A stretch of 36,381 nucleotides of DNA from positions 1-36,381 of the forward strand of contig JAKFUF010000031.1 in NCBI GenBank assembly GCA_021732845.1, written 5' to 3'. A program made the position numbers and the translations under genes. Source of the DNA: Planctomycetaceae bacterium. GTDB lineage: Bacteria > Planctomycetota > Planctomycetia > Planctomycetales > Planctomycetaceae. Positions 1 to 36,381 of the stretch are shown here, one piece after another (position 1 is the first letter of the stretch; each line of letters opens with the position of its first letter). Below the pieces are notes generated by a model that did not search any database, had not been told where the DNA came from, and worked only from the letters and a program-made list of their open reading frames with translations.

Positions 1-129
1 GGTCAATCATCTCCCGCTGCTCCCCACCCCGCCTCACGGCGACGCAGTTGCGGTCGACTACAGGATCAAACTTAAACCTCCTGGCTGGGACTTTCACCCG
101 CCGATTCAACAAACGTGCAAGCGCACGAG
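1..129. other. Left edge, no recognised gene
   Basis: No gene or known element recognised. The short open frames here overlap in several phases and carry no recognisable domain. Detectable similarity to the right-hand repeat array begins only near position 130. Confidence 0.4.
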
Positions 130-345
130 GGCTCCAGCTCCTGCTGAGCCACGGTGAAGGGTGGGCGCTGCTTGGGTGTGAACGATTCGCAAATGACTCG
201 AAAGTCCTTCGAAAACGCCGGATCGTCTGTTGCCCGCAACTCTGGAGGACCAGAGCCCTCCCGCCACGCCGATTGACAAATGGAAACAACCGGCTTGTCC
301 CAGCGTATCACCGGACGGCTTGCGCCATGCCGCTACAAGTGAATG

Positions 346-1176: not shown

Positions 1177-2409
1177 ATGGAAGTTTTCATTCAGGATTCG
1201 GTGGCTCCCCAAAGCCCTCCAGGCGTGGCTCCATCCGGCGAGGGGCGGGCGCGGAAGGAGCGGGCGGACTGCAAGGTGTCGGACGAGGGTTTGTACCACG
1301 CCATCGTGGCTCATCTCGGCGTCCTGTCGTATGTGGCGATCGCGGTGGGGATCAACCGTTCGGCGCTGTACAAGCGGATCGAGCGTGCCCCCGCACTGCA
1401 GGCGGCGCGCGATGGGGCGCGGCGGATGCTGTTGTCGCGGGCGACCTACCATTTGCGCAAGGCACTGCACGCGGGGATCGACTGGGCCGTCCACTACGTC
1501 ATGTGCCGCGAAGACCAGCTCTGGACGCCATTCAATGAGCCACAGCCGCCGACGGAAGCGCAGGCGAACAGGGCTCCGCGCGAGCCGAAGTTGGAAGAGG
1601 CGGAAGAGGTTGAGGAACAGCCGGAGCGGGCGGGCAAGTCGCTGCGGCGGTTGATTCGCGCGGTGGAGCGGGGGGAGCCGTGGGCGGTCAAGTACTGTTT
1701 GAATCACCTGGACCCGCGCGGCCGGTATGCGAAGAAATCCTGCGGCCGAAAGGCGGAAGCCACGGTTGGACAGGTCGCGCCCCAACCGCCGGTCGTCATT
1801 GATGAAGTCGCCGCCGAACTGGCGAAGGCGGTCTTTGATGCGGAACGCGGCCGTGGGACAGGCCAACGCCAAGAGAAAGCTGCGCCGCCTGTCTGCGATT
1901 CTGCCGCCCCTGCGGCCGAGCCCAAAGCAATCGTCGAGACCGCGCAAGAAAGCACTCCGCCCACGCTGGCGTTGGTGTCCGACGCGATTCCCCACGAAGA
2001 AGTGGTGATCGCTTCGCAATTCGCACTACAGTCCGAGAATTCCGCGCCCACCCTCGAGACAGAATCAGCGCCCACTCTTTCAGTGAACGGACCGAATCTA
2101 AGCCACGAGTTTGCGCCCACCGTGGATGTCGGGTTCGACGACAACTCCACTTCTCGACCGCCGATCGCCGCGCCGCTCCTCACGGCGATCGCGCCTGAAC
2201 CGTTCGCGCCCACCTTCGATCCAGCGCCCACTTTGCACGCCGCACCACCTCCAGACAGCGCGCCCACCAAACCCGCGAAGTGTTCGCCATCGCCGAAGCG
2301 CAAACAACAAAAGCCTCAATCCCGCGACCGCACCCGAAAACGGCGCGTACGGCCTCTTTCAACGAAAAAGCGCAGCCACGTCCGCCGGTCACACTCGCCC
2401 ATCGGTTGA
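1177..2409 (+). CDS. HTH / terminase-small-subunit-like protein with APT repeats and Arg-rich tail, left copy
   Basis: 410 residues. Residues about 36-70 look like a helix-turn-helix (LGVLSYVAIAVGINRSALYK). This is followed by two copies of a motif seen in phage terminase small subunits and related HTH proteins: AL-H-AGIDWAVHYVM near residues 100-109, and AVERGEPWAVKYCLNHLDP with RGRY at about 160-182. Residues about 270-365 contain at least six 'APT' tripeptides, most encoded by the octamer GCGCCCAC. The last 40 residues are rich in Arg and Lys (KRKQQK, RTRKRRVR) and probably bind nucleic acid. The start is the ATG after a weak GGGTG site and matches the start of the paralogue. Function is unknown; DNA binding is inferred. 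Its conserved promoter and upstream repeat array suggest a mobile or repeat-associated family. Confidence 0.75.
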   Translation: MEVFIQDSVAPQSPPGVAPSGEGRARKERADCKVSDEGLYHAIVAHLGVLSYVAIAVGINRSALYKRIERAPALQAARDGARRMLLSRATYHLRKALHAGIDWAVHYVMCREDQLWTPFNEPQPPTEAQANRAPREPKLEEAEEVEEQPERAGKSLRRLIRAVERGEPWAVKYCLNHLDPRGRYAKKSCGRKAEATVGQVAPQPPVVIDEVAAELAKAVFDAERGRGTGQRQEKAAPPVCDSAAPAAEPKAIVETAQESTPPTLALVSDAIPHEEVVIASQFALQSENSAPTLETESAPTLSVNGPNLSHEFAPTVDVGFDDNSTSRPPIAAPLLTAIAPEPFAPTFDPAPTLHAAPPPDSAPTKPAKCSPSPKRKQQKPQSRDRTRKRRVRPLSTKKRSHVRRSHSPIG

Positions 2410-33709: not shown

Positions 33710-34948
33710 TCACTGGCCGATGAGCGAATGTGACCTCGGCACGCGGCTGCGCTTTTTCGTTGAGAGGGGCCGCACGCGCCGTTTTCGGGTGCGGTCGCGG
33801 GATTGAGCCTTTTGCTGCTTGCGCTTCGGCGATGGCGAACACTTGGCGGGCTTGGTGGGCGCACCGGTCGGTGGCGGTGCGGCGTCCAAAGTGGGCGCTG
33901 GTTCGAGGGTGGGCGCGAACGGTTCAGGCGCGGTCCCCGTGAGGTGCGGTGCGGCTGGCAGTTGAGAAGTGGAGTTGCGCGTGAACCCGACATCCACGGT
34001 GGGCGCGAACTCGTGGCTCAGATTCTGTCCGTTCACTGAAACAGTGGGCGCTGATTCTGTTTCGAGGGTGGGCGCGGAAACCAGGGGCTGTTGAGCGTGT
34101 GCCGAAGAGGTCATCGCTTCTTCCTGGCAAGCCGCCTCTGACATCAACACCCGCGCGGGCGCGGGCGAAGCGGTTTCGTTCAAAGTCTCAATCGACGTGG
34201 TAAGTTCTTCCGCCGCCGCGCGCTGATCACAGACAGCCGGCGCAGCTTGCTTTTGACGTTGGTCTGTCCCACGGCCGCGTTCCGCATCAAAGACCGCCTT
34301 CGCCAGTTCGGCGGCGACTTCATCAATAACCACCGGCGGTGCCTCGGGCGGAGTCGTTCCAACTGTGGCTTCCGCCTTCCGGCCACGGGATTTCTTCGCG
34401 TAGCGGCCACGCGGGTCCAGGTGATTCAAACAGTACTTGACCGCCCACGGCTCCCCCCGCTCCACCGCGCGGATCAGCCGCCGCAGCGACTTGCCCGCCC
34501 GCTCCGGCTGTTCCTCAACCTCCTCCGCCTCCAGTTTCGGCTCGCGCGGAGCCCTGTTCGCCTGCGCTTCCGTCGGCGGCTGTGGCTCATTGAACGGCGT
34601 CCAGAGCTGGTCCTCGCGGCACATGACGTAGTGGACCGCCCAGTCAATCCCCGCGTGCAGTGCCTTGCGCAAATGGTAGGTCGCCCGCGACAACAGCATC
34701 CGCCGCGCCCCATCGCGGGCGGCCTGCAGTGCGGGGGCACGCTCAATCCGCTTGTAGAGCGCCGAGCGGTTGATCCCCACCGCGAGCGCAACATACGACA
34801 GGACGCCGAGATGGGCCACGATGGCGTGGTACAAACCCTCGTCCGTCACCTTGCAGTCCGCCCGCTCCTTCCGCGCCCGCCCCTCGCCGGATGGAGCCAC
34901 ACCTGGAGGACTTTGGGAAGCCACCGAATCCTGAATAAAAACTTCCAT
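33710..34948 (-). CDS. HTH / terminase-small-subunit-like protein with APT repeats and Arg-rich tail, right copy
   Basis: 412 residues; the inverted paralogue of the gene at 1177. The first 197 residues differ from that copy at only a handful of positions, including the predicted helix-turn-helix and both AVERGEPWAVKY-type motifs. Residues about 198-275 diverge strongly. The APT repeat region and the basic tail (PSPKRKQQK, RTRKRRVRPLSTKKRS) are again conserved. The C-terminal end is one residue longer. The divergence pattern (conserved ends, variable middle) is unusual for a recent duplicate and may reflect selection or gene conversion. No partner gene; function unknown. Confidence 0.75.
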   Translation of the reverse strand: MEVFIQDSVASQSPPGVAPSGEGRARKERADCKVTDEGLYHAIVAHLGVLSYVALAVGINRSALYKRIERAPALQAARDGARRMLLSRATYHLRKALHAGIDWAVHYVMCREDQLWTPFNEPQPPTEAQANRAPREPKLEAEEVEEQPERAGKSLRRLIRAVERGEPWAVKYCLNHLDPRGRYAKKSRGRKAEATVGTTPPEAPPVVIDEVAAELAKAVFDAERGRGTDQRQKQAAPAVCDQRAAAEELTTSIETLNETASPAPARVLMSEAACQEEAMTSSAHAQQPLVSAPTLETESAPTVSVNGQNLSHEFAPTVDVGFTRNSTSQLPAAPHLTGTAPEPFAPTLEPAPTLDAAPPPTGAPTKPAKCSPSPKRKQQKAQSRDRTRKRRVRPLSTKKRSRVPRSHSLIGQ

Positions 34949-35196: not shown

Positions 35197-35355
35197 CATT
35201 CACTTGTAGCGGCACGGCGCAAGCCGTCCGGTGATGCGCTGGGACAAACCGGTTGTTCCATTTGTCGATCGGCGTGGCGGGAGGGCTTTGGTCTCCAGAG
35301 CAGCGGGCAACTCGCAAGCCTCACGTCTTCCTCACTCGGGCACCGCAACGTTGCC

Positions 35356-36032
35356 GAGTCACTCCGTGACTCGAACCCAGCCGGACTGGCTGGGCGACTC
35401 TGAGGCTCACCGGAGGGCTTGTGCCCTGCCTGTCTGTGAATTGCAAGCCGTCGAGGAAGCCACGATGCGAGTCACGGAGTGACTCGACTACTTTGTGTTG
35501 CCTCTCGCTCGGCGAAAGGACGCGAGCATGGTCCGGCGCGGACAGACACGGAGGCTCTGGATTCGCGATGTCGGCATTGTCGCCAGACGTTCGCGTTCTG
35601 TTGCGGAGCACAAGACGACATTACGCCCACTTGTAGCGGCACGGCGCAAGCCGTCCGGTGAGCCGCTGGGACAAACCGGTTGTTTCCATTCGCCGATCGG
35701 CGTGGCGGGAGGGCTTTGGTCCTCCAGAGCCGCGGGCAACAGACGATCCGGGGTTTTCGAAGGACTTTCGAGTCATTTGCGAATCGTTCACACACCCAAG
35801 CAGCGCCCACCCTTCACCGTGGCTCAGCAGGAGCTGGAGCCCTCCCGCCGCGTCGATCGCAAGCTTCACGTCGTCCTCTCTCGGACACCGCAACGTTGCC
35901 GAGTCACTCCGTGACTCGAACCCGGCCTGAGTGACTGGGCGACTTTGAAACTCACCAGAGGGCTTGTGCCCTGCTGCTCGCTCTGGAGGGCAAGCCGTCG
36001 AGGAAGCCACGATGCGAGTCACGGAGTGACTC
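35356..36032. repeat. REP-like 17-bp palindromes, right set
   Basis: Four exact copies of GAGTCACTCCGTGACTC or its complement lie at 35356-35372, 35469-35485, 35901-35917 and 36016-36032. Together with four on the left they are the only exact copies I found in the window. Confidence 0.85.
35491..35626. repeat. MITE-like unit, right copy 2
   Basis: 136 bases with the intact GACGACATTACGC end on the right and a degraded CTTTGTGTTGCC end on the left. Confidence 0.7.
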
Positions 36033-36037
36033 GACTA

Positions 36038-36173
36038 CTTTGTGTTGCCTCTCGCTCTGCGAGAGGACGCGGGCGTGGTCCGGCGTGGACAAACACGGAG
36101 GCTCTGGATTCACGCTGTCGGCATTGTCGCCAGACGTTCGCGTTCTTGTGCGGATAAAAAGACGACTTTACGC
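36038..36173. repeat. MITE-like unit, right copy 3
   Basis: 136 bases, same ends as the second right copy; right end AAGACGACTTTACGC. Confidence 0.7.
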
Positions 36174-36255
36174 CCACTTGTAGCGGCACGGCGCGAGCCG
36201 TCCGGTGATACGCTGGGACAAACCGGTTGTTTCCATTTGTCGATCGGCGTGGCGG

Positions 36256-36381
36256 ATAGGGGTAGGGAGGGCCGATTGGTTTCGGCTCCCCCCTCCCTCC
36301 GAACCGGACTGGCGGATTTCCCGCATCCGGCTCTCCAGTTGATGGTCTTACCTGGGACAGGGTTGAAGTGCGAGTTTGTGG
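36256..36381 (-). mobile_element. 3' end of a group II intron (domains V-VI), truncated by window edge
   Basis: On the minus strand, 36333-36301 reads as a domain V: GAGCCGGA pairs with TCCGGTTC, the catalytic AGC triad is present, and a GAAA-type loop caps an upper GCGG/CCGC stem. The following 45 bases form a domain VI-like hairpin with a candidate branch-point A eight bases from the 3' end, and the intron ends in CCCTACCCCTAT at 36256, an AY terminus. The repeat sequence CCGCCACGCCGATCG resumes exactly at the junction (36255). The intron-encoded reverse transcriptase lies outside the window. Confidence 0.85.

Follow-up and report, generated by a model that had tools for sequence, protein, structure and literature searches.

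The window analysed here is the whole 36,381-nucleotide (nt) contig JAKFUF010000031.1 of Planctomycetaceae bacterium (GenBank assembly GCA_021732845.1), a complete contig of a 9.25-Mb genome in 262 contigs, read on the forward strand. A repeat array lies at either side, and the window is flanked by two copies of one group II intron in the same orientation, the 5' end of one at positions 1-126 and the 3' end of the other at positions 36256-36381. On the right, the window ends beyond reasonable doubt in the tail of a group II intron. This element is very probably a retroelement that has been active recently and is of a hairpin-targeting (group IIC-like) type; its two ends, the copy number, the target sites and the target hairpin were observed directly. 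The features of the intron in the window are as follows.

36256 to 36381, minus strand: final 126 nt (3' end) of a group II intron copy, truncated where the contig stops; the same sequence stands at 32 contig ends
36256 to 36335, minus strand: domains V and VI, from a match to RF00029 and the RNA fold
36263, minus strand: bulged branch-point A, 8 bases from the intron 3' end, in the minimum free energy fold
1 to 126, minus strand: 5'-terminal 126 nt (GTGCGCTTGC...) of a further copy of this intron, from the 5' end search

Ends and copy number of the intron

The original prediction, made from the letters of the window, had assigned the right end to a group II intron according to a domain V fold, a domain VI-like hairpin with the branch-point A eight bases from the end and an AY terminus, and all three were recovered. 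The match of the Rfam covariance model RF00029 to minus-strand positions 36256-36335 scored 54 bits, against a gathering score of 40 bits; its E value was 4.8e-8 when the entire window was searched and 3.7e-10 when its last 282 bases were rescored. The RNA of domains V and VI was folded at -49.9 kcal/mol, as compared with a shuffle mean of -31.9 kcal/mol (z -5.2; 0 of 200 shuffles as good), and the A at 36263 was bulged in this fold. The intron terminates in ...CCCCTAT, which is of the AY type (AT), and the catalytic triad of domain V is AGC, within GAGAGCCG.

The identical 3' end was found at 32 contig ends, that of the window included, over 126 nt in 31 of them and over 122 nt in the remaining one. 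RF00029 was matched in at least 38 places of the genome, of which 32 scored 54 bits and 6 scored 46.4 bits; the number is a lower bound, as 150 of the 545 first-look candidates were scored. The search for the 5' end with AGCCCTC followed by GTGYG gave 34 matches, as against 0 for the reversed control; two of these matches, on contigs C88 and C240, are not the intron and were discarded. When the first 40 bases of the intron itself were used, 33 places were obtained, all of them exact even with 3 mismatches permitted, and thus no diverged 5' end copy was detected among the genome contigs at up to 3 mismatches in 40. The predicted existence of a 5' end was thereby established: all 33 begin with GTGCG (GUGYG type), and they agree at every base available (over 126 nt in 30 of them, and over 103, 101 and 84 nt in the others, respectively).

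All 33 5' ends and all 32 3' ends are located at contig ends, and the window stops at 36381 owing to the intron itself, because the identical intron 3' end recurs at 32 contig ends. A constant overlap of 126 bases would be what an assembly graph with k=127 leaves at a collapsed repeat. Altogether, 65 of the 524 contig ends of the draft genome are ends of this one intron, which accounts for about one contig end in eight. The lack of differences among the ends points to a recent burst.

A second group II intron was observed separately, with 6 identical 3' ends at the ends of contigs C62, C83, C118, C144, C166 and C257 (L045-L050); all six 3' exons start with TGGT, and five of them resemble one further repeat family.

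Target hairpin and the repeat arrays

The intron boundary was compared with the repeat copies of the window, for which the following features were used.

35981 to 36255: repeat copy interrupted by the intron, 92% identical to 35434-35708; the 3' exon (minus strand, CCGCCACGCC...) begins at 36255
35434 to 35708: uninterrupted repeat copy, from the repeat comparison, with an empty site between 35708 and 35709
35709 to 35732, minus strand: hairpin and intron-binding site 1 (IBS1, GCCCTC) of the empty site, with one stem mismatch (CCAAAGC)
35821 to 35844, plus strand: second empty target hairpin in the opposite orientation, GGCTCAGC-AGGA-GCTGGAGCC-CTC
35281 to 35304, minus strand: further empty target site with a mismatched hairpin
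237 to 260, plus strand: empty target hairpin in the left-hand array
127 to 150, minus strand: 5' exon hairpin and IBS1 of the left-hand intron copy

The exact resumption of the repeat at 36255 and the empty site in an uninterrupted copy, both of which had been predicted, were found as claimed: the second repeat copy stops precisely at 36255, the site is present at 35708/35709, and the 3' exon matches the empty copy at 92 of 100 bases. Two repeat units of the window carry two inverted hairpins each, 127-150 (minus) with 237-260 (plus) and 35709-35732 (minus) with 35821-35844 (plus), respectively; for the site at 35281 no inverted partner with the core AGCCCTCCCGCC was found.

Across the genome, a hairpin directly followed by GCCCTC forms the 5' exon at 32 of the 33 occupied sites. 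Two kinds of hairpin are seen: GGCTCTGG-AGGA-CCAGAGCC, including versions that are shortened or altered in the loop, and GGCTCAGC-AGGA-GCTGGAGCC, including a version that differs from it by one base. The 3' exon starts with C at all 32 sites (31 loci and the window), and with CCGCC in 24 of the 31 loci. In the exon comparison, where the left copy of the window was present as both L141 and L062 and was counted once, 26 of the 33 5' exons belong to the repeat family of the window, on a criterion of at least 60 out of 250 bases; in 6 others the similarity is confined to the hairpin (32-44 nt), and 1 shows none. Of the 32 3' exons, 20 lie in the repeat. The expectation that other repeat copies would be occupied was therefore correct for many copies. 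The claim that the multi-copy repeat is the target stood in part, as most 5' exons do lie in it; the actual target is the small hairpin, which also occurs outside the repeat and which, with its GCCCTC, is the key feature that the original prediction had overlooked.

The uninterrupted core AGCCCTCCCGCC occurs 86 times in the genome (3 times for the reversed control), and these 86 unoccupied matches represent 81 distinct contexts. Since the unoccupied sites share the core, they can be used as controls for the effect of the hairpin, and the 33 occupied and 81 unoccupied same-core sites thus constitute a natural experiment on the hairpin features that are required. A fold of -11 kcal/mol or lower was found at 32 of 33 occupied and 52 of 81 unoccupied sites (Fisher p 1.3e-4), and at 7 of 8 and 15 of 39, respectively, when only distinct 24-mers were counted (p 0.018); these site p values are optimistic, the repeat copies being related and not independent. 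Many unoccupied sites carry good hairpins, and bad hairpins are rare at occupied sites. Among the sites with a perfect CTCTGG/CCAGAG stem, the loop has 4 bases in all 17 that are occupied, whereas it has 3 bases in 10 of the 36 that are not (p 0.021). The mismatched stem CCAAAGC was found at 8 of the 81 unoccupied sites and at none of the 33 occupied ones.

Other features were recorded in and around the repeat. Two similar, inverted frames of 410 and 412 amino acids (aa), at window positions 1177-2409 (plus) and 33710-34948 (minus), each stand beside a repeat array and gave a weak P22 Cro-like helix-turn-helix match below the cut-off (17.5 and 17.6 bits, respectively, against 30.2). The repeat unit contains a palindrome, GTAGCGGCACGGCG..., at window positions 35203, 35630 and 36177 (plus) and elsewhere in the genome, which resembles a repetitive extragenic palindromic (REP) element; CTTGTAGCGGCACGGCG gave 129 genome matches at up to 2 mismatches, as against 22 for the reversed control. 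REP-associated transposases typically adjoin REP sequences, and one of the 5 Y1 transposase matches in the genome (PF01797, 34.7 bits, C228:1195-1866) lies about 360 bases from a REP-like sequence.

Relatives of the intron and their targeting rule

A search of the assembly did not recover the body of the intron, and twelve contig pieces (L119-L130) gave no match to the intron of a relative. The smallest of the 262 contigs has 2765 bases, and a body of the expected length of about 1.85 kb could therefore have dropped out as a collapsed repeat. DNA similar to the intron 3' end was detected in 16 of 58 relatives, or in 17 of 59 genomes once the host is included. A single-contig genome of the same family as the host contains two identical introns of 1843 nt with both ends, and another genome of the same class contains one complete intron of 1896 nt with similar 5' and 3' ends; the 3' end of the closest full-length relative is 85% identical over query bases 16-126. 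Broken reading frames were found in the relatives G050 and G058. The Rfam models for domains I-IV gave one sub-threshold match on the relative (group-II-D1D4-4, 37.7 bits against 49), which was left unused.

The 1843-nt intron encodes an unbroken frame of 494 aa, which was matched by TIGR04416 (group II reverse transcriptase/maturase) with 377.9 bits (cut-off 300). The Pfam scan of this one relative's protein gave RVT_1 and GIIM only, and no endonuclease domain was matched. Compared with solved structures, the protein scored 240.6 bits with the reverse transcriptase of GsI-IIC, 213.5 with 7uim (which we take to be the E. rectale IIC complex), 145.1 with 6me0 and 139.4 with LtrA. It was matched in 181 of the 297 genomes of the class, the host included (E at most 0.001), many of these matches being distant reverse transcriptases. 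Among the best 80 of 457 named relatives in database contigs, assigned to phyla by record title, 42 are from planctomycetes in the broad sense and the others from Acidobacteria, Verrucomicrobia, Nitrospira, Proteobacteria and others. Ten loci of a related intron among these 80 (L244-L246, L250, L253, L254, L256, L258, L260 and L261) belong to Singulisphaera sp. GP187, and three distinct exons checked there carry a CGACGC-GGA-GCGTCG hairpin.

For the targeting rule, 55 relatives with distinct exons were used, 46 named and 9 of 13 unnamed. The best 80 of 457 named loci were reduced to 68 with a domain I match, to 53 with GTGYG and enough exon and finally to the 46 with distinct exons; from the unnamed ones, L111 (the same intron as L112) and L198, L206 and L209 (exons as in L234, L246 and L266, respectively, by eye) were left out. 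A stem of at least 5 base pairs (bp) beside the site was found in 49 of 55, as compared with 10% of 2713 intron-internal windows and 7.9% of 2750 shuffled exons, and a stem of at least 6 in 39 of 55 (3.1% and 2.0%, respectively). For the pairing of exon-binding site 1 (EBS1) with IBS1, one domain I column pairs with the final four bases of the exon in 42 of the 55 relatives (36 by Watson-Crick pairs only), over 5 bases in 37 and over 6 in only 15. The next best column reached 11 (4 bp) and 8 (5 bp) of 55, and in 100 exon shuffles, which do not preserve relatedness, no column exceeded 13 at 4 bp. A second pairing (EBS2-IBS2) was not detected at exon offsets 4-21, where the best column reached 6 of 55 and 20 shuffles reached 7. 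A candidate column for IBS3-EBS3 pairs in 36 of 45, but G predominates in this column and C at the exon base, each in 33 of 45.

The IBS1 stretch is diverse among the relatives (CCCTA, GGCTA, AGAAG, GGGGA, TTTTG and others) and the hairpin is kept, so these introns would have changed targets while retaining the hairpin. The covariation of EBS1 with IBS1 across 55 relatives of several phyla provides a simple rule by which the targets of such introns may be predicted, and for the intron of the window the rule predicts an EBS1 of GAGGG.

Explanations compared and relation to known systems

In the mechanism that we propose for the retroelement, the spliced intron RNA and its reverse transcriptase would bind the hairpin DNA, EBS1 would pair with CCCTC, the five exon nucleotides next to the stem, EBS3 would pair with the C that opens the 3' exon, and the intron would be reverse-spliced into the site and then copied into DNA. 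The primer for copying would probably come from the replication fork, as no endonuclease domain was matched in the protein of the relative. The host carries the hairpin in a dispersed repeat and thus offers many landing sites; the harmless spread suggested originally would fit. The targeting mode is group IIC-like, with a hairpin at the site here; in relatives the IBS1 is short, and neither an IBS2 nor an endonuclease domain was detected. A formal assignment to IIC is withheld because domain V has AGC and the protein was placed by its ranking against solved structures. We also consider, tentatively and at somewhat less than even chances, that a widespread lineage of hairpin-reading introns drifts in its 5-nt EBS1, and so changes targets, while it keeps the recognition of hairpin shape, and that one of these introns has here specialised on the hairpin repeat as a safe haven and burst to at least 33 copies.

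Several points weigh against the hairpin-targeting retroelement. One of the 33 sites (on contig C198) has a different, weaker hairpin. The contrast between occupied and unoccupied sites is partial, with a median of -11.7 kcal/mol in both (Mann-Whitney p 0.016), and for distinct 24-mers p rises to 0.048 at -9.5 kcal/mol and 0.23 at -8 kcal/mol, four thresholds having been tried; the relatedness of repeat copies and of exons, mentioned with the p values and the shuffles, bears on the same side. Moreover, 13 of the 55 relatives lack pairing at the EBS1 column, and the EBS1 of the window's intron stays a prediction, as no body turned up in the assembly as searched. Domain V has AGC instead of the CGC reported for IIC. 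The GIIM (maturase) domain gave 0 matches in the assembly, and of its 5 RVT_1 matches, the 3 that could be aligned with the protein of the relative have 27-29% identity to it. Finally, identical ends are partly expected where an assembly breaks at identical copies, and further or diverged copies may exist among the candidates beyond the 150 of 545 scored.

The missing body and GIIM domain, together with the broken frames of G050 and G058, would suit an intron that has no open reading frame (ORF) in this genome and was spread in trans by a reverse transcriptase from elsewhere, or that has since lost its mobility. This is unlikely, as the closest full-length relative has an unbroken frame and a similar 3' end, a collapsed body of about 1.85 kb could be missing in any case, and the ends without differences point to a recent burst. 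It is less likely still that the hairpins are incidental and the intron is a member of a group IIB class without endonuclease (D, E or F, for example): the AGC triad would allow this, whereas the relatives show a 5-bp IBS1, no detected EBS2-IBS2 pairing and hairpins far above control, weaker hairpins are more frequent at unoccupied sites with the same IBS1, and the relative's protein ranks closest to the IIC structures.

Passive carriage, in which the repeat was duplicated after a single insertion, would explain why a single repeat family supplies 26 of the 33 5' exons. It is very improbable, since the occupied sites show two hairpin types and differing flanks, 6 of the 5' exons are alike only over the 32-44 nt at the hairpin and a further one carries a different hairpin, and the intron ends are identical whereas the exons differ. 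An assembly artefact, by which one intron end was wrongly joined to many contigs, is scarcely credible; every copy found does terminate at a contig end, but the fixed 126-base overlap would be expected from a k=127 graph at a true repeat, the joins coincide with the intron boundary, and complete introns are present in two single-contig or scaffolded relatives. The hairpin-targeting retroelement is therefore preferred.

Group IIC introns insert after hairpins (PMC3898094, PMC4424553), a CGC catalytic triad in domain V was reported for them (PMC7923331), and in the E. rectale IIC complex a spacer of 4 bases and an IBS1 of 4 separate the stem from the site, 8 bases in all (PMC10190682). The intron of the window resembles group IIC (PMC10190682, PMC3898094, PMC4424553, PMC7923331) in having a 5' exon hairpin, in place of IBS2 and with a short IBS1 as judged from the relatives, and its relative's protein in having no endonuclease domain and in being closest to IIC proteins by sequence. 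Whereas the E. rectale target has 8 nt (PMC10190682), the distance between stem and site is 3-4 nt at 32 of the 33 sites here and most often 4 nt (15 of 49) in the relatives. Further differences from group IIC are the AGC triad, an IBS1 that is not T-rich and the lack of a T run after the hairpin.

The introns of Thermosynechococcus elongatus presumably belong to another intron class with other target rules. That genome carries 28 group II intron copies, some of them inside another mobile element, and several related intron kinds are present there, as against the one identical-ended kind here (PMC2882425). In the survey of PMC8919778, 101 group II introns are given for Arthrospira platensis and the bacterial-C, g6, U1 and U2 types are found after terminators; like these types, the present intron is inserted straight after a hairpin and the proteins are of 400-500 aa without endonuclease. 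The string 'planctomyc' has 0 occurrences in the main text of that survey. No literature on group II introns in such Planctomycetes repeats was found among the titles and abstract openings listed, a coverage outside which most subscription papers fall. The spread of an intron to dozens of copies, insertion into mobile elements and insertion after hairpins (IIC) were already known, and the element is ordinary in kind. It is notable for its copy number and its dispersed hairpin target; the hairpin repeat that it uses lacks a T run, and a clear targeting rule holds among the relatives.
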